Source: Nocardioides panacisoli
GTDB taxonomy: Bacteria > Actinomycetota > Actinomycetes > Propionibacteriales > Nocardioidaceae
NCBI RefSeq assembly: GCF_019448235.1
Contig: NZ_CP080409.1
Coordinates: 806,001-870,000, forward strand
DNA length: 64,000 nucleotides
Reading direction: 5' to 3'
Notes under the pieces: model-generated
Seen by the model: only the letters and a program-made list of their open reading frames with translations
What the model was told of the DNA's origin: nothing
The model's database searches: none
Part shown: piece after piece, positions 28,986-50,353 of the stretch
How positions within the stretch are numbered: position 1 is the first letter of the stretch
Layout of the letters: every line of letters begins with the position of its first letter
Made by a program: the position numbers and the translations under genes

Positions 28986-29014
28986 TTGGCCAGAATGAGA
29001 ACACGTTCTAGTAT
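28986..29014 (+). promoter_or_regulatory. mce4 promoter with KstR operator
   Basis: GAGAACACGTTCTA at 28997-29010 fits the KstR consensus TnnAACnnGTTnnA in its palindromic core GAAC-AC-GTTC. A -35 like TTGGCC (28986-28991) and a -10 TAGTAT (29009-29014) are 17 bases apart and bracket the site, so bound repressor would block RNA polymerase. Transcription would begin near 29020, followed by GAGGGGAGG and the GTG at 29048. The rest of the gap 28864-28985 holds nothing recognisable. Confidence 0.85.
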
Positions 29015-39438: not shown

Positions 39439-39469
39439 TCCACTGAATGGCGGGTGACCCGATGGCAAC

Positions 39470-39485
39470 TAGAACACGTTACAGT
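39470..39485 (+). promoter_or_regulatory. KstR operator/-10 box of the ferredoxin-reductase operon
   Basis: TAGAACACGTTACA (39470-39483) matches TnnAACnnGTTnnA. The -10 TACAGT (39480-39485) overlaps its right half and ends six bases before the GTG at 39492, so the transcript is probably leaderless. The stretch AGAACACGTTACAGTTCT is repeated exactly in the promoter at 54807-54824. Confidence 0.85.
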
Positions 39486-39491
39486 TCTCGT

Positions 39492-40454
39492 GTGGAGTGC
39501 GATCTCGTCGTCGTGGGGGCCGGGCCGACCGGCCTCTACGCCACCTACTACGCCGGCTTCCGTGGGCTCCGGGTCGCGGTGGTCGACTCCCTGCCCGAGC
39601 TCGGCGGTCAGGTGACGGCGATGTATCCCGAGAAGGACATCCTCGACGTCGCCGGGTTCCCGCGGGTGCTGGGCCGCGACCTCGTCGCCGGACTGGTGGC
39701 CCAGGCCAAGAGTGCCGGCCCCACCTACCTGCTGGACCGCACCGCCACCGAGCTCGCCGTCGACGACGACGGCCTCACCCTCGAGCTGGACGACGGCACT
39801 GCGATCCGCGCCGGCGCGATGATCATCACCGCAGGCATCGGTCGGTTCAGCCCACGGCCGCTGGCGGCCGGCGACGGCTGGCTCGGCAGGGGCCTGGAGT
39901 TCTTCGTCCCGAGTTTCGACCCCTACATCGGCAAGGACGTCGTCGTGGTCGGCGGGGGCGACAGCGCGTTCGACTGGGCCCAGCACCTGGAGCCGATCGC
40001 CCGGTCCGTCACCCTGGTCCACCGCCGCGACCGGTTCCGCGCCCACCAGCGCACCGTCGACCAGGTCCAGGCGTCCTCGGTGGAGATCCTCACCAACGCC
40101 CAGGTCGCCCGGATCGGCGGCGCCGACGTCGTCACCGAGGTCGACATCGAGGTCGACGGCGAGACCGTCACTCGACCGGCACAGGCCGTCATCGCGGCGC
40201 TGGGCTTCCTCGCCGACCTCGGTCCACTGCAGGAGTGGGGGATCGAGGCCAACAAGCGCCACCTCGTGGTCGACTCGGCGATGCGGACGAACCTGCCGCG
40301 CGTGTTCGCAGCCGGCGACATCACCGACTACCCGGGCAAGGTCCGCCTGATCGCGGTCGGCTTCGGAGAGGCTGCGACCGCGGTCAACAACGCCGCCGTG
40401 GTCATCGACCCCGATGCCCACGTCTTTCCCGGACACTCCTCGGAGGGCAACTGA
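39492..40454 (+). CDS. Thioredoxin-reductase-like ferredoxin-NADP(+) reductase
   Basis: About 320 residues. The GTG at 39492 is chosen because longer in-frame starts (39447, 39462) would put the KstR site and -10 box inside the coding region. FAD-binding VECDLVVVGAGPTGLYATYYAGFRG at the N-terminus, NADP-binding VVVVGGGDSAFDWAQ in the middle and the C-terminal FAD motif RVFAAGDITDYPGKVRLIAVGFGEAA. There is no CxxC redox pair, which separates it from thioredoxin reductase and fits the TRLF ferredoxin/flavodoxin reductases. The ferredoxin gene two positions downstream is the obvious partner; final acceptors could be steroid cytochromes P450 (CYP125/CYP142 type) encoded elsewhere. Confidence 0.88.
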   Translation: MECDLVVVGAGPTGLYATYYAGFRGLRVAVVDSLPELGGQVTAMYPEKDILDVAGFPRVLGRDLVAGLVAQAKSAGPTYLLDRTATELAVDDDGLTLELDDGTAIRAGAMIITAGIGRFSPRPLAAGDGWLGRGLEFFVPSFDPYIGKDVVVVGGGDSAFDWAQHLEPIARSVTLVHRRDRFRAHQRTVDQVQASSVEILTNAQVARIGGADVVTEVDIEVDGETVTRPAQAVIAALGFLADLGPLQEWGIEANKRHLVVDSAMRTNLPRVFAAGDITDYPGKVRLIAVGFGEAATAVNNAAVVIDPDAHVFPGHSSEGN

Positions 40455-43630: not shown

Positions 43631-44239
43631 TCAGCGCAGGACGAGCCGGACCGCGGTGTCCATGTGGGCTGCGGTCTCGTTGGCGGTGGAGCGTCCGGTG
43701 ACCCAGCCCACGAGGGCGGAGAGCCACACGTCGCCGATGACGCGAGCGATCGCGATGTCCTCGTCGGTGATGTCCTCATCGGTCGGGACGCCGCCGTGCA
43801 TCGCATGGGTCACGATGGCGGTCATCGACATGCCCACGCCGTGGATCTCGTTGGCCACCGAGGCGTCGGCGAACATGAAGGCGCGCGTGAGCGCCTCGGT
43901 GAGCTGCGGGTCGCCCTGCATGCCGCGCGTGAGCCGCTTGAGCACGTGGATGACCCGATCGGCTGCGGTGTCACCGGGGATCGCCTTGGCGTTGAGGCGG
44001 TCGACGGCGGACTCGAACTCCCGCTGGAGTGCGGAGACGAGCAGGTGGATCTTGGAGGGGAAGTAGCGGTAGAGCGTCCCCAGGGCGACATCGGCCTGGT
44101 CGGCGACGGCGCGCATCTGCACGGCGTCGAACCCGCCCTCGCTCGCCAGCGCGTACGTCGCGTCGAGGATCCGCTTGCGGCGCTCCTGCTGTGCGCTCGA
44201 ACCCGAGTCCTCGCCGGATGCCGGCTTGGTGATGGTCAT
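43631..44239 (-). CDS. kstR: KstR, TetR-type repressor of steroid catabolism
   Basis: A 202-residue TetR repressor. The helix-turn-helix part QERRKRILDATYALASEGG and AVQMRAVADQADVALGTLYRYFPSKIHLLVSAL closely follows Mtb/Rhodococcus KstR, as do TEALTRAFMFADASVANE and ARVIGDVWLSALVGWVT in the ligand domain, which binds 3-oxo-steroid CoA thioesters in known KstR. ATG 44239 has GGGAGAAG six bases upstream. A KstR operator at 44339-44352 lies 100 bases upstream, so it is autoregulated and shares the site with the divergent glycosyltransferase operon. It stands in the centre of its probable regulon: sites lie on both sides within 15 kb. Confidence 0.93.
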   Translation of the reverse strand: MTITKPASGEDSGSSAQQERRKRILDATYALASEGGFDAVQMRAVADQADVALGTLYRYFPSKIHLLVSALQREFESAVDRLNAKAIPGDTAADRVIHVLKRLTRGMQGDPQLTEALTRAFMFADASVANEIHGVGMSMTAIVTHAMHGGVPTDEDITDEDIAIARVIGDVWLSALVGWVTGRSTANETAAHMDTAVRLVLR

Positions 44240-44312: not shown

Positions 44313-44352
44313 TAGGCTACTAGCACGTAGCCTAGAATAGGAACACGTTCTA
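44313..44352. promoter_or_regulatory. kstR/glycosyltransferase intergenic: KstR site plus second inverted repeat
   Basis: AGGAACACGTTCTA at 44339-44352 is a KstR operator with the GAAC-AC-GTTC core. Directly beside it is a perfect inverted repeat TAGGCTAC-N6-GTAGCCTA (44313-44334), unlike the KstR motif. A -10 like TAGAAT (44333-44338) lies between them for the rightward operon. Two operators suggest control by KstR and one other regulator. Confidence 0.75.
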
Positions 44353-44457: not shown

Positions 44458-45726
44458 ATGCGGATCGCAATGCTGTCCTATCGCAGCAAGCCGCACGTCG
44501 GGGGGCAGGGGGTCTACCTGCGTCACCTGAGTCGCGAGTTGGTCCGCCTGGGCCACGAGGTCGAGGTGTTCTCGGGTCAGCCCTATCCGGACCTGGACGA
44601 GGGCGTGAGGCTGACCAAGGTGCCCAGCCTCGACCTCTACCGGGAGACCGACCCGTTCCGCGTACCCAAGCTGCGCGAGTTCCGCGACCTCACTGACGTG
44701 CAGGAGTTCGCCATCATGTGTGCCGCGGGCTTCCCCGAGCCCCGGACGTTCAGCCGCCGCATCGCGAAGGTGATGGCCGAGCGGCGCGACGACTTCGACG
44801 TCGTCCACGACAACCAGGTGCTGGGCCACGGCATGCTCGACATCTCCGACCCGGAGAAGGTCGACCTCCCGATGATCACCACGATCCACCACCCGATCAC
44901 CTTCGACCGCCGCATCGACCTCAGCCAGACACGCAACCCGTGGCGCAAGGTGACCCTGCGTCGCTGGTACGGGTTCCTGCGGATGCAGGCGCACGTCGCC
45001 CGTCGGGTCCGGTGGATCCTCACCCCGAGCGAGGCGTCCAAGCGCGACATCGCCCGCGACTTCGGCGTCGACCCGGCCCGGATGCAGGTCATCCTGCTGG
45101 GCGTCAACGACAACTTCGTGCCGCCGACCAAGCCGCGGGTCCCGGGCCGAATCATGGCGATGGCCAGTGCCGATGCCCCGATGAAGGGGATCGCCACGCT
45201 CCTCGAGGCGTTCGCCAAGCTCCGCACCGAGCGCGACGTCGAACTCGTCCTGGTCACCCGCCCCGCGCCCGGTGGGCGCACCGAGAAGCTGATCGACGAG
45301 CTCGGCATCGCCCAGTCGGTGCGCTTCGCCAGCGGATTGAGCGACGACGAGCTCGTCGCGCTGATGGGCTCCGCCGAGGTGGCCTGCGTGCCGAGCCTCT
45401 ACGAGGGCTTCTCGCTCCCCACGGCCGAGCTGATGGCGTGCGGCACCCCACTGGTGGTGAGCCGGGCGGGCGCGATCCCCGAGGTCGTCGGTCCCGACGG
45501 CGAGTGCGCCGACCAGGTCCCGCCCGGCGACGTCGGCGAGCTGTACGCCGCACTGACGCGGATGCTCGACGATCCTGAGCGCCGGGAGCGGATGGGCGTC
45601 GCCGGTCGTCGGCGGGTCGAGGAGATGTTCAGCTGGCGGGCGGTCGCGCAGAAGGTCGCGGCGGCGTACGAGCAGGTCATCGCGGACCACCGGTCCGCGG
45701 GTGCGGCCACCGAGGAGGAGCGCTGA
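44458..45726 (+). CDS. GT4-family glycosyltransferase
   Basis: A 422-residue GT-B fold glycosyltransferase of family 4. N-terminal glycine-rich loop MLSYRSKPHVGGQGVYLRHLSREL, and the C-terminal nucleotide-sugar site EGFSLPTAE (E-x7-E) followed by CGTPLVVSRAGAIPEV. The ATG at 44458 follows GGGAGGAGAAG. No signal peptide or membrane helix, so it acts in the cytoplasm. It heads an operon with a methyltransferase and a prenyltransferase-like protein and shares the KstR-site promoter with kstR. Mtb Rv0225 (next to methyltransferase Rv0224c and the Rv0220-Rv0222 lipid genes) seems to be the counterpart. Acceptor unknown. Confidence 0.87.
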   Translation: MRIAMLSYRSKPHVGGQGVYLRHLSRELVRLGHEVEVFSGQPYPDLDEGVRLTKVPSLDLYRETDPFRVPKLREFRDLTDVQEFAIMCAAGFPEPRTFSRRIAKVMAERRDDFDVVHDNQVLGHGMLDISDPEKVDLPMITTIHHPITFDRRIDLSQTRNPWRKVTLRRWYGFLRMQAHVARRVRWILTPSEASKRDIARDFGVDPARMQVILLGVNDNFVPPTKPRVPGRIMAMASADAPMKGIATLLEAFAKLRTERDVELVLVTRPAPGGRTEKLIDELGIAQSVRFASGLSDDELVALMGSAEVACVPSLYEGFSLPTAELMACGTPLVVSRAGAIPEVVGPDGECADQVPPGDVGELYAALTRMLDDPERRERMGVAGRRRVEEMFSWRAVAQKVAAAYEQVIADHRSAGAATEEER

Positions 45727-45727
45727 G

Positions 45728-46474
45728 ATGCTGACCGTCGACTTCGACCGGCTCGGGTTGCGTCCCGGCGACCGTGTGCTCGACATGGGTGCCGGGGCGG
45801 GACGCCACAGCTTCGAGATGTACCGCCGCGGCGCCGACGTCGTCGCCTTCGACCAGGACGGCGACGAGCTCGCCGGCGTCCTGGAGCTCTTCGGTGCCAT
45901 GAAGGAGGCCGGCGAGGTACCCGCGGGGGCCAGCGCCGACATCAAGCAGGGCGACGCCCTCGCGCTGCCCTTCGCCGACGGTGAGTTCGACCGCATCGTC
46001 GCTGCCGAGGTCCTCGAGCACATCCCCAACGACGTCGCGGCGATCGAGGAGCTCATCCGGGTGCTGCGCCCCGGCGGTTCCCTCGCCGTCTCGGTGCCGC
46101 GCTGGCTTCCGGAGGTCGTCAACTGGCGCCTCTCCGCGGACTACCACAACGCGACCGGCGGCCACATCCGGATCTACACCGACCACGAGCTCATCGACAA
46201 GGTGACCAAGGGCGGCCGGGCCAACGACGGCACGCCGGGCACCGCGATGGTCTTCGACGGCAAGGACCACACCCACGGCCTGCACGCGCCGTACTGGTGG
46301 ATCAAGTGCGCCGTGGGCGTGGAGAACGACGGACACCCGCTGGCGAAGGCCTACCACCAGCTCCTGGTGTGGGAGATCATGAAGAACCCGCTGCCGCTGC
46401 GGCTGGCCGGCCGGGTGCTCGACCCCCTCATCGGCAAGAGCATGGTGCTCTACTTCCACAAGGCGGCTGCGTGA
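45728..46474 (+). CDS. Class I SAM-dependent methyltransferase of the GT cassette
   Basis: A 248-residue methyltransferase (Methyltransf_11 type). SAM motif I VLDMGAGAGRHSFEM, acidic motif FDQD, motif II FDRIVAAEVLEHIPND, motif III LRPGGSLAVSVPRW. ATG 45728 is just after the GT stop, with GAGGAG upstream. The C-terminal half (YHNATGGHIRIYTDHEL, HAPYWWIKCAVG, KSMVLYFHKA) is long and hydrophobic, as for lipid or polyprenyl substrates. GTGA overlap with the next gene. Confidence 0.86.
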   Translation: MLTVDFDRLGLRPGDRVLDMGAGAGRHSFEMYRRGADVVAFDQDGDELAGVLELFGAMKEAGEVPAGASADIKQGDALALPFADGEFDRIVAAEVLEHIPNDVAAIEELIRVLRPGGSLAVSVPRWLPEVVNWRLSADYHNATGGHIRIYTDHELIDKVTKGGRANDGTPGTAMVFDGKDHTHGLHAPYWWIKCAVGVENDGHPLAKAYHQLLVWEIMKNPLPLRLAGRVLDPLIGKSMVLYFHKAAA

Positions 46475-47619
46475 CGGCCCGTCGGTCCGAGGTGCCGCTG
46501 GCGCGGTTGCCCTACGTCGACGGGGTGCTGACCGCCGGTCAGGTGGCCGACACGGCGGCCTCGATCGCGGCGATGCAGGAGCCCCGCGGCGCCGTGCCCT
46601 GGACGACCGGCGAGCACGTCGACATCTGGAACCACGTCGAGGCCGCCATGGCGATGCTGGTCGGTGGTCAGGTCGAGGCCGCGGAACGGGCCTATGACTG
46701 GATCCCGACGATGCAGCGCAGTGACGGCTCCTTCCCGATGCAGATCGTCGACGGCGAGGTCACCGACGAGCGCGGTGAGGTCAACATGTCGGCCTACTTC
46801 GCCGTCGGCCTGTGGCATCACTGGCTGCTGCGCCGCGACATCCGCTTCATCGAGCGGCACTGGCCCGGTGTGCGCGCCGCCCTGGACTGGGTGATCTCCC
46901 TCCAGCAGCCCTTCGGCGGCATCTGGTGGACCCCGATCGACGAGTTCTGCCTGCTCACCGGCAACGCCAGCGTGCACCACTCGCTGCGTGCCGGGGTGGC
47001 CCTGGCCGACCTGATGGACGACCCGCAGCCGGAGTGGGAGCTGGCCGGCGGCCGGCTCGGCCATGCGGTACGCCGCCACCCGGACCTGTTCGCGGACAAG
47101 TCCAGCTACTCGATGGACTGGTACTACCCGGTGCTCGGTGGCGCGGTGCGCGGGCAGGCGGCGTACGACCTGCTCGCGATGCGGTGGGACGACTTCGTGG
47201 TGCCCGGCCTGGGCATCCACTGCGTCGACACCAACCCGTGGGTGACTGGCGCAGAGACGTGTGAGCTGGCGATGGCGCTCGACCTGATCGGCGACCAGCG
47301 CCGTGCGCTCCAGCTCTTCACCGACATGCAGCACCTGCGTGAGGGCGACGGTCGCTACTGGACCGGGTGGGTCTACGCCGACCCCCGGCGCCCGGCCCCG
47401 CCGGACGAGCCGGTCGACGTCCACTGGCCGGTCGAGCACACCACCTACACCGCGGCCGCGGTGGTGCTGGCCGCCGACGCGCTGGGGGAGACGTTCGGCC
47501 ACAGCACGCCCGGTTCGGCGATCATGCGGGGCACCTCGCTCGCGGCACCCTTCGACGAGATCGGCCTGGAGTGCGGCTGCTCCGACGAGTACGCCAACTC
47601 CTCGCGCCAGCGCCCCTGA
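46471..47619 (+). CDS. Prenyltransferase/terpene-cyclase-like alpha-toroid protein
   Basis: A 382-residue protein from GTG 46471. Repeated tryptophan/aspartate-rich helices (VDIWNHVEAAMAMLVGG, AYDWIPTMQRSDGSFPMQ, HHWLLRRDIRFIERHWPGV, SYSMDWYYPVLGG) fit an alpha/alpha toroid of the prenyltransferase/squalene-cyclase fold; the family is often annotated 'prenyltransferase'. The DxDD motif of terpene cyclases is absent, so a catalytic role is open; glycosidase-like toroids are an alternative. Ends five bases from the convergent methyltransferase gene. Always read with the GT and methyltransferase as one cassette. Confidence 0.75.
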   Translation: MTARRSEVPLARLPYVDGVLTAGQVADTAASIAAMQEPRGAVPWTTGEHVDIWNHVEAAMAMLVGGQVEAAERAYDWIPTMQRSDGSFPMQIVDGEVTDERGEVNMSAYFAVGLWHHWLLRRDIRFIERHWPGVRAALDWVISLQQPFGGIWWTPIDEFCLLTGNASVHHSLRAGVALADLMDDPQPEWELAGGRLGHAVRRHPDLFADKSSYSMDWYYPVLGGAVRGQAAYDLLAMRWDDFVVPGLGIHCVDTNPWVTGAETCELAMALDLIGDQRRALQLFTDMQHLREGDGRYWTGWVYADPRRPAPPDEPVDVHWPVEHTTYTAAAVVLAADALGETFGHSTPGSAIMRGTSLAAPFDEIGLECGCSDEYANSSRQRP

Positions 47620-47623
47620 CGGC

Positions 47624-48262
47624 TCAGGTGCGCCGCAGGACGCGCAGCGAACCGACGGCGTCGACCTCGACGAAACGGCCGGACGCGAGGGCGGGCAGGT
47701 AGATCTGCTCGTATGGCGGCCGGCCACCGTGTGCGGGGTCGGGGAAGACGTCGTGGACGGCGAGGAGGCCGCCGCGCATCACGTGCGGGGTCCACGCCTC
47801 GTAGTCGGTGCGCGCCGGTTCCTCGCCGTGGCCGCCGTCGATGAAGAGCAGGGACAGCGGCGTGGTCCAGTGGCGAGCGACCGTCGCGGAGCGTCCCAGG
47901 ACGGCGACCACGTGGTCCTCCAGGTCGGCGTCGGCGATCGTGCTGCGGAACGTGGGGAGGGTGTCCATCAGCCCCGTGGTCGGGTCGACGAGGGTGGTGT
48001 CGTGGTGCTCCCAGCCGGCCTGGTTCTCCTCCGAGCCGCGGTGGTGGTCGACGGTGAAGACGACCGCTCGCTCGTCCACCTCCCGGGCCGCGGCGCCCAG
48101 CCAGATCGCGGACTTGCCGCAGTAGGTGCCGACCTCCAGTGCGGGTCCGTGGGGGAGGCGTTCGCGTGCGATGCGGTGGAGGGCCGCGCCCTCGTCCTCG
48201 GGCATGAAGCCCTTCGCGGCGCGGGCGTGGGCGAGCAGGTCCTCGGGCATCGTGTCGGACAC
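47624..48262 (-). CDS. Class I SAM methyltransferase (TylF/Methyltransf_24-like)
   Basis: A 212-residue protein. ALEVGTYCGKSAIWLGAAA is SAM motif I, VFTVDHHRGSEEN the acidic end of strand 2, LSLLFIDGGHGEEPARTDYEAW the metal-/substrate-binding motif of macrocin-O-methyltransferase-like enzymes. GTG 48262 is probably leaderless: a -10 TAGACT ends six bases upstream and the KstR site follows at 48281-48294, shared with the divergent FadE34-like gene. Converges on the prenyltransferase-like gene, completing a four-gene cassette read from two KstR-controlled promoters. Confidence 0.82.
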   Translation of the reverse strand: MSDTMPEDLLAHARAAKGFMPEDEGAALHRIARERLPHGPALEVGTYCGKSAIWLGAAAREVDERAVVFTVDHHRGSEENQAGWEHHDTTLVDPTTGLMDTLPTFRSTIADADLEDHVVAVLGRSATVARHWTTPLSLLFIDGGHGEEPARTDYEAWTPHVMRGGLLAVHDVFPDPAHGGRPPYEQIYLPALASGRFVEVDAVGSLRVLRRT

Positions 48263-48280: not shown

Positions 48281-48294
48281 TGGAACGTGTTCTA
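48281..48294. promoter_or_regulatory. KstR operator between methyltransferase and FadE34-like gene
   Basis: TGGAACGTGTTCTA, core GAAC-GT-GTTC. On the minus strand a -10 TAGACT (48269-48274) follows at six bases from the GTG of the methyltransferase; on the plus strand the acyl-CoA dehydrogenase start is 65 bases away with a GAGGAG ribosome site. Confidence 0.85.
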
Positions 48295-48358: not shown

Positions 48359-50353
48359 ATGTCGATCGCACTGAGCGAGGAGCAGGTCGAGCTGGCGGCG
48401 AGCCTGCGGAAGTGGGCCGCCGGTCTCGGTGGCGTCGAGGCGGCGCGGTCCGCGGAGGGCAAGGCCGACGCCGACTTCGGCGACGCCTGGGCGGCCGTGG
48501 TCGACATGGGTGTGGCCGCCATCGCCGTGCCCGAGGACGCCGGTGGCGGGGGCGGCAGCCTGCTCGACCAGGCGGTCGCGCTCGAGGCGTGCGCCCACGA
48601 GCTCCTGCCCTCCGGTCTGCTCGGCGCGGCCATCGGGTCCGCGCTGACCGGCCGACCGGGCCGCTACGGCGTCCAGGTCCACCCCGGTGGCGCGCTCTGG
48701 GACGGCGGCGCCGCCACCGACCACATCCTGCTCGCGGGCGCCGCGGCCGGCACGGCGACGCTCGGGCTGGACCTCACCGCACGCCACGCCACGACCACCG
48801 GCGGGGGCGAGGATGACCCGCAGCGGCGGCGTACGGCGATCACGCTGGCGGCCGCCGAGGCGTCCGGTGTGGCGCGCTGGTGCCTGGAGACCGCGGTCGC
48901 CCACGCCAAGGTCCGTGAGCAGTTCGGCCGGCCCATCGGCAGCTTCCAGGCCGTGAAGCACCTGTGTGCGCAGATGCTCGAGACCGCCGAGGCCGTCACC
49001 GCTGCCGCCTGGGACGCGGCCTCCGCCGCCGACCGCGACGACGCCGAGCAGTGGGGGTTCGCGGTCGACGTCGCGCAGGCCACCTGCTTCGAGGGCGCCG
49101 TAGGGGTGGCGCAGGACTGCATCCAGGTGCTGGGTGGCATCGGCTTCACCTTCGAGCACGACGCCCACCTCTACCTCCGACGGGCGATGTCGCTGCGAGC
49201 GCTCGTCGGCGACGCCGACCTCGCGGCCGAGCGCCTCACGGCTGCCGCCGCTGCCGGCGTACGCCGCCGCGTGGCCCTCGACCTCGACGGCCGCGACGAC
49301 GCGGTCCGGGGCGACGTGCGCGCCACCGTCGAGCGGATCGCCGGCCTTGCGGAGGAGCAGCGGCGGGCGGCACTGGTCGCCACGGGCTACCTGACCCCCC
49401 ACTGGCCGCGACCCGCGGGACTCGCCGCCGACCCGGTGACCCAGGTGGTCATCGACCAGGAGCTCGACCGTGCCGGCGTGCAGCGGCCCGACCTGGTCAT
49501 CGCCGGTTGGGCCTTGCCCACGATCCTGGAGCATGGCACCGATGCCCAGCGCGAGCGGTTCGTCGAGCCGTCACTCCACGGTGACCTGGTGTGGTGCCAG
49601 CTCTTCTCCGAGCCCGGGTCGGGCTCGGACCTGGCGTCGCTGCGCACGCGCGCGGAGCGGGTCGACGGCGGCTGGCGGCTGACCGGCCAGAAGGTGTGGA
49701 CGTCGATGGCCGAGCGGGCCGACTGGGCGATCTGCCTGGCGCGGACCGATCCCGACGCCCCGGCCCACCGCGGCATCACCTACTTCGTCGTGGACATGCG
49801 CACCGCCGGCATCGAGGTGCGGCCACTGCGGGAGATCACCGGCGAGGCGCTGTTCAACGAGGTCTTCCTCGACGGCGTGTTCGTGCCCGACGACTGCGTC
49901 GTCGCCGAGCCCGGGGACGGGTGGCGACTGGCGCGCACCACCCTGGCGAACGAGCGGGTGGCGATGGCCACTGCCCGACTGGACAAGAGCGTGGAGCGGG
50001 CGGTCGAGCTCGCGAGCGGCGACCTCGGTGCCACCGAACGGGTCCGGGTGGGCCGTGCCGTCGCGCTGGCGACCGTGTGCGGCCTGCTCGGGGTGCGGAC
50101 GACACTCCGCGCCCTGGACGGGCGCGGCCCCGGTGCCGAGTCCAGCGTGGCCAAGCTGCTGGGCGTCCGCAGCCGGCAGGACGCCTCGGACCTCGTGGTG
50201 GACCTCCAGCGCGACCGGGTCGCGCTCGGCGACCCCGACGTGCAGGCCGACGTCTGGGAGGCGCTCAACACCCGCTGCCTCTCGATCGCCGGTGGCACCA
50301 CGCAGATCCTGCGCAACGTGGCCGGCGAGCGGATCCTCGGCCTGCCGCGGTAG
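48359..50353 (+). CDS. fadE34: Two-domain acyl-CoA dehydrogenase, FadE34 (ChsE3)-like
   Basis: A 664-residue flavoenzyme with two ACAD halves in one chain. N-half: FGDAWAAVVDMGVAAIAVPEDAGGGGG, then HAKVREQFGRPIGSFQAVKHLCAQM and LGGIGFTFEHDAHLYLRR near residue 265; C-half begins near 320 and has FSEPGSGSDLASLRTRAE, WRLTGQKVWTSMAERADW and ends TQILRNVAGERILGLPR. FadE34 of Mtb (Rv3573c) is a fused ACAD of similar size that oxidises a C5 steroid side-chain CoA thioester and is next to kstR; here four genes separate them. ATG 48359 follows GAGGAG. KstR site upstream. Confidence 0.87.
   Translation: MSIALSEEQVELAASLRKWAAGLGGVEAARSAEGKADADFGDAWAAVVDMGVAAIAVPEDAGGGGGSLLDQAVALEACAHELLPSGLLGAAIGSALTGRPGRYGVQVHPGGALWDGGAATDHILLAGAAAGTATLGLDLTARHATTTGGGEDDPQRRRTAITLAAAEASGVARWCLETAVAHAKVREQFGRPIGSFQAVKHLCAQMLETAEAVTAAAWDAASAADRDDAEQWGFAVDVAQATCFEGAVGVAQDCIQVLGGIGFTFEHDAHLYLRRAMSLRALVGDADLAAERLTAAAAAGVRRRVALDLDGRDDAVRGDVRATVERIAGLAEEQRRAALVATGYLTPHWPRPAGLAADPVTQVVIDQELDRAGVQRPDLVIAGWALPTILEHGTDAQRERFVEPSLHGDLVWCQLFSEPGSGSDLASLRTRAERVDGGWRLTGQKVWTSMAERADWAICLARTDPDAPAHRGITYFVVDMRTAGIEVRPLREITGEALFNEVFLDGVFVPDDCVVAEPGDGWRLARTTLANERVAMATARLDKSVERAVELASGDLGATERVRVGRAVALATVCGLLGVRTTLRALDGRGPGAESSVAKLLGVRSRQDASDLVVDLQRDRVALGDPDVQADVWEALNTRCLSIAGGTTQILRNVAGERILGLPR

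Follow-up and report, generated by a model that had tools for sequence, protein, structure and literature searches.

The 3-O-methylmannose polysaccharide (MMP) of mycobacteria is described as an intracellular product, and a cluster of four genes for it is known from nontuberculous mycobacteria such as M. hassiacum (MHAS_04402-04405; Maranha et al. 2023, PMC9883506). According to the same paper, the M. tuberculosis complex lacks the cluster, and an MMP-negative mutant, which grows more slowly at 15 °C, gives a clue to the physiological cue of MMP; S. griseus is listed there as a producer of acetylated MMP. Its main text does not use the words "cholesterol", "kstr", or "operon". A related arrangement can be recognized in cluster B of N. 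simplex VKM Ac-2033D (PMC7807495, PMC7593942), where kstR (KR76_12270) and fadE34 (KR76_12295) have four locus tags between them (KR76_12275-12290) if the tags are numbered by fives. These four tags are absent from the main texts of both papers, and no mention of them was found in the other literature searched. The main texts report the induction of cluster B as totals for the whole cluster, with 16 genes up-regulated on cholesterol, 19 on lithocholate, and 12 on phytosterol. The cassette is not named in the available passages of a paper on Saccharopolyspora hirsuta (PMC9782250). The locus of Pimelobacter simplex 3E (L055) has the same gene order as the one described here.

The window analyzed here is a 64,000-nucleotide stretch of the Nocardioides panacisoli genome. 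It contains homologs of the four M. hassiacum genes in the same order and on the same strands (Table 1). Unlike the cluster of M. hassiacum and other mycobacteria, that of the window adjoins kstR and fadE34 and is accompanied by KstR-type sites, and its MmpH carries the substitutions D50N, F102M, and W315Y, while D47 and E262 are kept. Sequence comparisons identify the cassette as the MMP cluster and suggest that in Nocardioides it is probably held under KstR repression, from which an acyl-CoA ligand would release it together with sterol catabolism. KstR control of the MMP cassette looks new; a literature search found no paper joining "methylmannose" with "KstR".

Table 1 Features of the kstR–fadE34 region and a further KstR-type site in the window
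Feature	Position	Strand	Remarks
KstR-type site GAGAACACGTTCTA (context)	28997..29010	.	directly before a gene presumed from its sequence to be of the yrbE4A/mce type
kstR (TetR family)	43631..44239	-	divergent from manT; NF033703, E 6.7e-81
KstR-type operator AGGAACACGTTCTA	44339..44352	.	kstR-manT gap; 2 mismatches to TAGAACNNGTTCTA; ~105 bp 5' of the start codon of manT
manT, GDP-mannose:MMP alpha-(1->4)-mannosyltransferase homolog (GT4)	44458..45726	+	PDB 7qsg, residues 1-409, E 2.7e-155
pmeT3, putative MMP 3-O-methyltransferase (class I SAM methyltransferase)	45728..46474	+	Methyltransf_11 (Pfam)
mmpH, MMP endo-alpha-(1->4)-mannosidase homolog ("toroid")	46471..47619	+	PDB 7qsj, residues 11-371, E 7.8e-115
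meT1, MMP 1-O-methyltransferase homolog (Methyltransf_24, TylF-like)	47624..48262	-	PDB 6g7d/6g80/6h40, E 4.6e-72
KstR-type operator TGGAACGTGTTCTA	48281..48294	.	meT1-fadE34 gap; 1 mismatch to TAGAACNNGTTCTA
fadE34-like fused acyl-CoA dehydrogenase	48359..50353	+	two stretches of Pfam Acyl-CoA_dh domains

Identity of the cassette

The layout given in a preliminary description of the locus, with kstR, four genes, a fadE34-like gene, and a KstR-type palindrome at each end, is confirmed. The name of the fadE34-like gene is based on this layout and on the map of N. simplex, where KR76_12295 lies beside kstR. The start of mmpH overlaps the end of pmeT3 by four bases. Three of the four cassette proteins have solved structural relatives. 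The second-best PDB chain for ManT has an E value of only 1.2e-23, and the equivalents of M. hassiacum G15, H142, K240, L291, D293, E313, and E321 are all present in an alignment read by hand. The product of pmeT3 is 53–61% identical to that of the gene at the same position in named loci outside Nocardioides, with one partial match at 49%. All 25 named Mycobacterium loci share the gene order and strands of the window, including the placement of meT1 on the opposite strand. Judged by these homologies, the cassette is the published MMP cluster, and its enzymes are already known; the proposal that it is a candidate for an undescribed system is not supported. The view that the four genes have no known step in sterol degradation is supported.

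The cassette is not a trait of steroid users only, because mmpH is present in 210 of 215 genus genomes and KstR (E ≤1e-45) in only 134. The preliminary description had taken a cassette that is common and unlinked to steroid genes or KstR sites as evidence against its proposal. The cassette is indeed common, but its tie to KstR is supported by the comparison of genomes.

The KstR of the window scores 270.3 bits against NF033703, below the curated cut-off of 280, and the next family scores 51 bits. The cut-off is passed in six of the 215 genus genomes. In a midpoint-rooted tree, one fork with 100/100 support holds 41 rows, among them all rows above the cut-off and 12 Nocardioides rows, with the KstR of the window inside; it also includes four of the seven rows labeled as paralogs.

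Operators and their association with kstR

At one mismatch or fewer, the operator pattern occurs at 19 places in the whole genome and the reversed pattern at two; therefore, the right-hand site is above chance. At two mismatches or fewer, the window contains six places, versus two for the reversed pattern, and the left-hand site is weak when taken alone. Motif counts at two mismatches were rejected as sole evidence, since the 1.55 Mb of named loci contain 109 matches versus 34 of the reversed pattern. Where kstR and the cassette are linked in the genus, the exact AAC-NN-GTT core is found upstream of manT in all 30 loci, and a site with up to two mismatches lies in the meT1-fadE34 gap in 26 of the 30. 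These sites alone prove nothing for the cassette, because the left-hand one also belongs to the kstR promoter and the right-hand one to the promoter of fadE34. The right-hand operator probably serves mainly the fadE34-like gene.

More informative are the KstR-bearing genus loci in which the cassette is not beside kstR. A site with up to two mismatches is found upstream of manT in all 15, ten of them being perfect; the exact core is present in 11 and broken in four. By contrast, none of the 30 genus genomes that have the cassette and lack kstR carries a site upstream of manT. Control motifs, one reversed and two rearranged, gave no sites in any genus class. The operator at the promoter thus varies together with kstR, with few independent pairs available for the unlinked loci. 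On a tree of 75 cassettes, 12 independent pairs differ in kstR, and the presence of a site at either end (up to two mismatches) is concordant with it in 10.6 pairs on average and opposed in none; the comparison of unlinked with kstR-negative loci on the same tree provides only three independent pairs (p 0.25). A looser site rule, which adds the core AACACGTT with up to four mismatches in a clause set after the data had been seen, makes 75 of 75 cassettes congruent. The contig fragment G622, classed by script as unlinked, is outside the 15; G031 (truncated contig), G619 (fragmented assembly), and the row of L159 (wrong reading frame) were left out.

The gene across the unlinked site is divergent and DUF1707-like in G001, and the gene before manT is co-directional in G630, which has a perfect site, and in G572 and G544, both with a broken core. 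Therefore, the site most simply serves manT in these genomes. The perfect site of G027 may instead have a yrbE4A-like gene as its client, and the site of G496 lies inside the end of another open reading frame. The unlinked cassette of N. turkmenicus (L079) has a perfect site as well.

In 13 genomes with KstR and no match to the steroid marker HsaA above its cut-off, kstR and manT are divergent neighbors, the gap between them holds a palindrome (11 found by script, two by eye), the locus stretch contains no fadE34 match, and genome-wide counts of KstR-type sites are at background.

Other actinobacteria

The clusters of the Streptomyces type resemble that of the window in that manT, pmeT3, and mmpH lie in a row next to a divergent KstR-like TetR gene with a palindrome before manT, as read in six loci. 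A KstR relative is located beside the cassette in 11 of 11 such genomes, and TAGAACAAGTTTCA occurs exactly once in each, between the KstR relative and mmpH by coordinates; manT itself was read in the six loci. However, the regulator lies outside the KstR fork, there is no fadE34 match in the stretch, each genome has a single exact operator, and meT1 is several kilobases away or missing from the stretch.

Among named loci, a site at manT with up to two mismatches is present in three of four Rhodococcus loci, and none of the three stretches contains a kstR match. In Rhodococcus L103 the site is present and the best KstR match in the assembly reaches only 110 bits; L083 has KstR and lacks the site. 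Three of seven Pseudonocardiales-type loci have such a site and six have the core. No site at manT was found in Mycobacterium (0/25), Nocardia (0/9 evaluable), Williamsia (0/2), or Actinoplanes (0/1), and KstR is above the cut-off in all checked genomes of these site-less groups (4/4, 5/5, 1/1, and 1/1, respectively). The Mycobacterium and Nocardia counts rule out KstR control of the cassette in all KstR-bearing actinobacteria.

Alternative explanations

The preliminary description had suggested a small biosynthetic pathway for an undescribed glycolipid or polyprenyl compound, with a prenyltransferase-like toroid. The general part of this idea is supported, namely a small biosynthetic set that lies among KstR-type sites and serves a methylated carbohydrate with presumed lipid-binding ability; a polyprenyl compound or a surface glycolipid is not supported, the set being the published MMP cluster with its intracellular product. 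The toroid has no Pfam match up to E 0.1, which speaks for the idea, but its NCBIfam matches are only weak ones of the glycosidase type, far below cut-offs, and it matches a solved and assayed glycosidase (7qsj); membership in the prenyltransferase/squalene-cyclase family was rejected on these grounds. Two further cluster members have close solved counterparts, and these matches already contradict the proposed pathway, which is hardly tenable. A polysaccharide that is related to MMP and differs from it in methylation pattern, hexose, or linkage is a more serious candidate, because MmpH is changed at its sugar-binding subsite while ManT is unchanged. All 68 MmpH rows of the genus carry D50N and an altered W315 (Y in 62, F in six), and 67 carry F102M (one I); thus the polymer may differ in the genus. 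In the other 74 rows, D50 is kept in 71 and W315 in 72, and D50A in M. hassiacum MmpH caused a drastic loss of activity (PMC9883506). However, D47, W49, N101, M215, Y219, E262, and E265 are invariant in all 142 rows, ManT of the window retains the residues that the structure paper singles out, and D50N may merely tune activity. We consider a variant polymer possible, with the balance against it.

It could also be that the cassette is a bystander, expressed regardless of operators that serve only kstR autoregulation on the left and only fadE34 on the right. The layout permits such a reading, an ambiguity that Shtratnikova et al. name for outward-facing operons in a passage of their paper (PMC7807495), and mycobacterial cassettes do without the site. 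A bystander would nevertheless not be expected to have a site at manT in every unlinked cassette, some with a co-directional upstream gene, to keep kstR beside manT in the 13 genomes without HsaA above the cut-off, or to have the three Rhodococcus sites with no kstR match nearby. We regard this explanation as improbable. Another observation that counts against KstR control comes from a part of the same paper: of the N. simplex operons for which KstR or KstR2 sites are predicted, only about one-third showed induction (PMC7807495).

Proposed mechanism and implications

The preferred explanation, MMP synthesis under KstR, combines the homology, gene order, operator conservation with kstR, and operator absence where kstR is absent that were computed here with enzyme reactions taken from the mycobacterial papers; we infer the steroid induction, the nature of the KstR ligand, which polymer the genus makes, and its role as an acyl-CoA carrier. 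MmpH would cut mature MMP into short primers, and ManT would extend these by alpha-(1->4)-mannose, with GDP-mannose as the donor. Methylation at O-3 would fall to the putative MeT3 and capping at O-1 to MeT1. The main operon manT-pmeT3-mmpH of Nocardioides would be repressed by KstR at the operator in the manT promoter, which the divergent kstR shares in many genomes. Binding of CoA thioesters of steroid side chains, or of other acyl-CoA in genomes without steroid genes, would release MMP synthesis together with sterol uptake and breakdown, and MMP may then hold long-chain or steroid acyl-CoA inside the cell, as a carrier or a buffer.

It has been proposed that MMP sequesters acyl-CoA, and a tie to the cholesterol repressor would supply a cue that can be tested and a possible function for the polymer. 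It would also suggest that KstR-family proteins lacking steroid targets respond to a different ligand, which bears on the origin of KstR specificity. We tentatively put forward, as rather unlikely, that KstR-type repressors originally regulate the MMP cassette, which is their sole target in the Streptomyces type and in Nocardioides free of steroid-ring breakdown. The cholesterol regulon would then have been built onto or around this module, with MMP as a soluble carrier of bulky intermediates (steroid-CoA and fatty acyl-CoA) while the cells grow on sterols. The structure paper left the catalytic acid of MmpH as a question (PMC9883506); the natural D50N substitution, together with the invariance of D47, points to D47.

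Layout of the locus

The four genes lie between kstR and a FadE34-type gene in the order and on the strands given in the preliminary description, and each flanking gap contains the KstR-type palindrome that had been proposed there.

Cassette genes, flanking genes and operators (window coordinates)
Feature	Position	Strand	Location	Source
kstR	43631-44239	minus	left flank of cassette	
KstR-type palindrome AGGAACACGTTCTA	44339		kstR-manT gap	motif search
manT	44458-45726	plus		
pmeT3	45728-46474	plus		
mmpH	46471-47619	plus		
meT1	47624-48262	minus		
KstR-type palindrome TGGAACGTGTTCTA	48281		meT1-fadE34 gap	motif search
fused acyl-CoA dehydrogenase, FadE34 type	48359-50353	plus	right flank of cassette	

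The motif TAGAACNNGTTCTA, which we take to be the KstR consensus, occurs with at most one mismatch at 19 places in the whole genome, against two for the reversed pattern. Another KstR-type site (28997-29010) is immediately 5' of a yrbE4A/mce-type gene in the window.

Identity of the four enzymes

The cassette is almost certainly the 3-O-methylmannose polysaccharide (MMP) cluster. Residues 11-371 of the toroid protein encoded by mmpH match the solved MMP hydrolase MmpH (PDB 7qsj, E 7.8e-115), the sole PDB sequence matched at E up to 1. The GT4 product of manT matches 7qsg at E 2.7e-155, with a runner-up chain at 1.2e-23. The depositors labelled 7qsg 'D-inositol 3-phosphate glycosyltransferase'; we take it to be ManT because of the score and because the residue numbering in the ManT paper fits that chain. 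The TylF-like product of meT1 matches 6g7d, 6g80 and 6h40 (E 4.6e-72), presumably MeT1 of M. hassiacum. For the remaining methyltransferase the PDB offers only distant relatives (best E 1.1e-11); it is assigned as putative MeT3 because of gene order and 53-61% identity in named non-Nocardioides loci (one partial match, 49%). According to the MmpH structure paper, MmpH cleaves MMP, ManT extends the fragments, MeT1 caps and pMeT3 is putative; a role in holding fatty acyl-CoA is proposed for the polymer, and the M. tuberculosis complex is described there as lacking the cluster (PMC9883506). The PDB matches thus place in a known cluster what had been put forward as an undescribed system: the enzymes are known, and the regulation is unusual.

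Altered active site of MmpH

The positions that the structure paper names were scored in 142 MmpH rows, 68 from Nocardioides and 74 from elsewhere, with some genomes counted twice because the named and unnamed sets overlap. All 68 Nocardioides rows have asparagine at D50; F102 is methionine in 67 and isoleucine in one, W315 is tyrosine in 62 and phenylalanine in six, and T163 is alanine in 30. Outside the genus, D50 is kept in 71 rows and W315 in 72. The three exceptions at D50, all asparagine, are distant relatives from the phylum, of which G439 and G431 combine D50N with W315Y and G364 has D50N alone. D47 and E262 are invariant in all rows. The structure paper leaves the catalytic acid undecided between D47 and D50 (PMC9883506). 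Because asparagine cannot serve as the acid, the alignment indicates that D47 is the likelier candidate.

KstR site upstream of manT in Nocardioides

The comparison covered 77 loci, namely the window, 36 relatives and 40 loci picked by class (12 unlinked, 21 KstR-negative and 7 linked), which makes the set a non-random sample. In 30 linked loci, kstR is divergent from manT; in 16 unlinked loci, of which one contig fragment was dropped, KstR is encoded elsewhere in the genome; 31 loci, 30 of them evaluable, are KstR-negative. An upstream site with at most two mismatches precedes manT in 15/15 unlinked, 10/30 linked and 0/30 KstR-negative loci. The core AAC-NN-GTT is exact in all 30 linked loci and in 11 of the unlinked ones, ten of which have a perfect site; the other four have one core mismatch. 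The KstR-negative locus G006 has a bare core with three mismatches. At the meT1 end, the site is present in 26/30 linked loci versus 0/30 KstR-negative loci. Reversed and rearranged control motifs gave no match at up to two mismatches in any class.

A tree of 75 cassettes has 13 changes each for kstR and the site, which agree in 75/75 under a loose rule (core, up to four mismatches) set after the data had been seen. If a site at either end is counted and the strict rule applied, kstR and site differ in the same direction in an average of 10.6 of 12 independent pairs, the site does not differ in 1.4 and no pair runs opposite (p 0.001 to 0.004). Because the left site is also the promoter of kstR itself, the test was repeated with unlinked and KstR-negative rows only; the split is 15/15 versus 0/30, although with only three independent pairs (p 0.25). 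It is quite probable that manT is under KstR control in the genus. That MMP would act as a carrier during steroid growth is a tentative idea, somewhat less probable than its opposite.

Neighbourhoods were inspected at six unlinked loci, with gene names that are presumptive. A co-directional reductase gene precedes manT at G630, G572 and G544, and a divergent DUF1707-like gene at G001. At G496 the site lies inside the end of a transporter ORF. At G027 a yrbE4A-like gene lies next to the cassette; the gap between them holds the perfect site, which may serve the yrbE4A-like operon. The gene type found directly 5' of manT at G630, G572 and G544, presumably ferredoxin-NADP-reductase-like, also occurs in the window at 39447-40454, where its 5' end bears the KstR-like palindrome TAGAACACGTTACA (39470).

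Spread of the cassette and retention of KstR without HsaA

The gene mmpH occurs in 210/215 Nocardioides genomes, in 1/21 other genomes of the order (a weak match) and in 66/396 genomes sampled from the phylum. KstR (E at most 1e-45) is encoded in 134/215 Nocardioides genomes and the steroid marker HsaA, above cut-off, in 120/215. Therefore, the cassette belongs to the core gene content of the genus and does not depend on steroid breakdown. Of the co-occurrence with kstR and steroid genes expected earlier, what holds is that the manT site follows KstR within the genus. The curated cut-off of the KstR model NF033703 (280 bits) is passed by 6/215 Nocardioides genomes and misses most KstR-like proteins of the genus, 134 genomes having matches at E up to 1e-45.

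By hand count, 17/134 KstR-bearing genomes lack HsaA above cut-off; a weaker match is present in three, G028, G572 and G630. Sixteen were examined for HsaA and neighbourhood only, so other steroid genes could remain in them. In 13/16, kstR is still divergent from manT, the gap retains a palindrome near manT, and no fadE34 match lies within the stretch around the cassette. Eleven of these palindromes were found by script (exact core, two to four mismatches), and those of G524 and G570 were seen by eye as GAAAC-NN-GTTTC. The other three (G572, G630 and G631) are unlinked and have the manT site, with the core broken in two of them. Per genome, WRGAACNNGTTCYW is found 0-7 times in these 16 and 0-6 times in six genomes lacking KstR; eight genomes with both KstR and HsaA, among them that of the window (16), have 7-28 copies, so that the first and last ranges meet at 7; the reversed pattern gives 0-8. 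HsaA changes at least seven times among KstR-bearing rows of an 85-row tree.

Published data and other actinobacteria

In two papers on Nocardioides simplex, kstR is KR76_12270 and fadE34 is KR76_12295 (PMC7807495, PMC7593942). Because the tags listed there rise by fives, four tags fall between them, and the gene order of Pimelobacter simplex 3E is that of the window. The literature searched, which excluded subscription papers, yielded no mention of these four tags and no joint mention of methylmannose with Nocardioides or with KstR; among its best-ranked matches, none joined methylmannose to a steroid term.

The manT site was scored in 49 named non-Nocardioides loci. With up to two mismatches, it is present in 3/4 Rhodococcus and 3/7 Pseudonocardiales-type loci (6/7 by core), and in 0/25 Mycobacterium, 0/9 evaluable Nocardia, 0/2 Williamsia and 0/1 Actinoplanes loci. 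KstR is above cut-off in the checked genomes of these site-less genera (4/4, 5/5, 1/1 and 1/1, respectively), and thus is not accompanied by the site everywhere. Rhodococcus L083 has KstR and no manT site; the assembly of Rhodococcus sp. JCM 9791 (L103) yielded no strong KstR, yet there is a KstR-like site at its manT. Actinopolyspora L094 has neither. Like Nocardioides, Halopolyspora (1/1) and Saccharopolyspora (3/3) have kstR beside manT. In a Prauserella locus (L112), the cassette is away from kstR in a steroid-linked placement, adjoining what we take to be a KstD-like flavoprotein gene that has a palindrome of its own, TGAAACATGTTTCA, noted on visual inspection.

The Streptomyces-type set comprises 11 mmpH-bearing genomes of one genus in the phylum sample (family f6, genus g11); manT was read in six of them. 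A KstR-like regulator (188-204 bits) is encoded beside the cassette in 11/11, and TAGAACAAGTTTCA occurs exactly once per genome in 11/11, by coordinates between the regulator and mmpH; one of the genomes has an additional place with one mismatch, and a different one has a single match to the reversed pattern. These regulators fall outside the 41-row KstR fork, closer to it than three weak paralogues, on a tree that warns of long branches meeting; with the paralogues taken as root, they are the sister group of the fork. The loci with this arrangement in the Streptomyces-type genomes are L182-L187 and L225-L235. At L183, presumably aldehyde-dehydrogenase-like and ferredoxin-like ORFs lie on the far side of the KstR relative.
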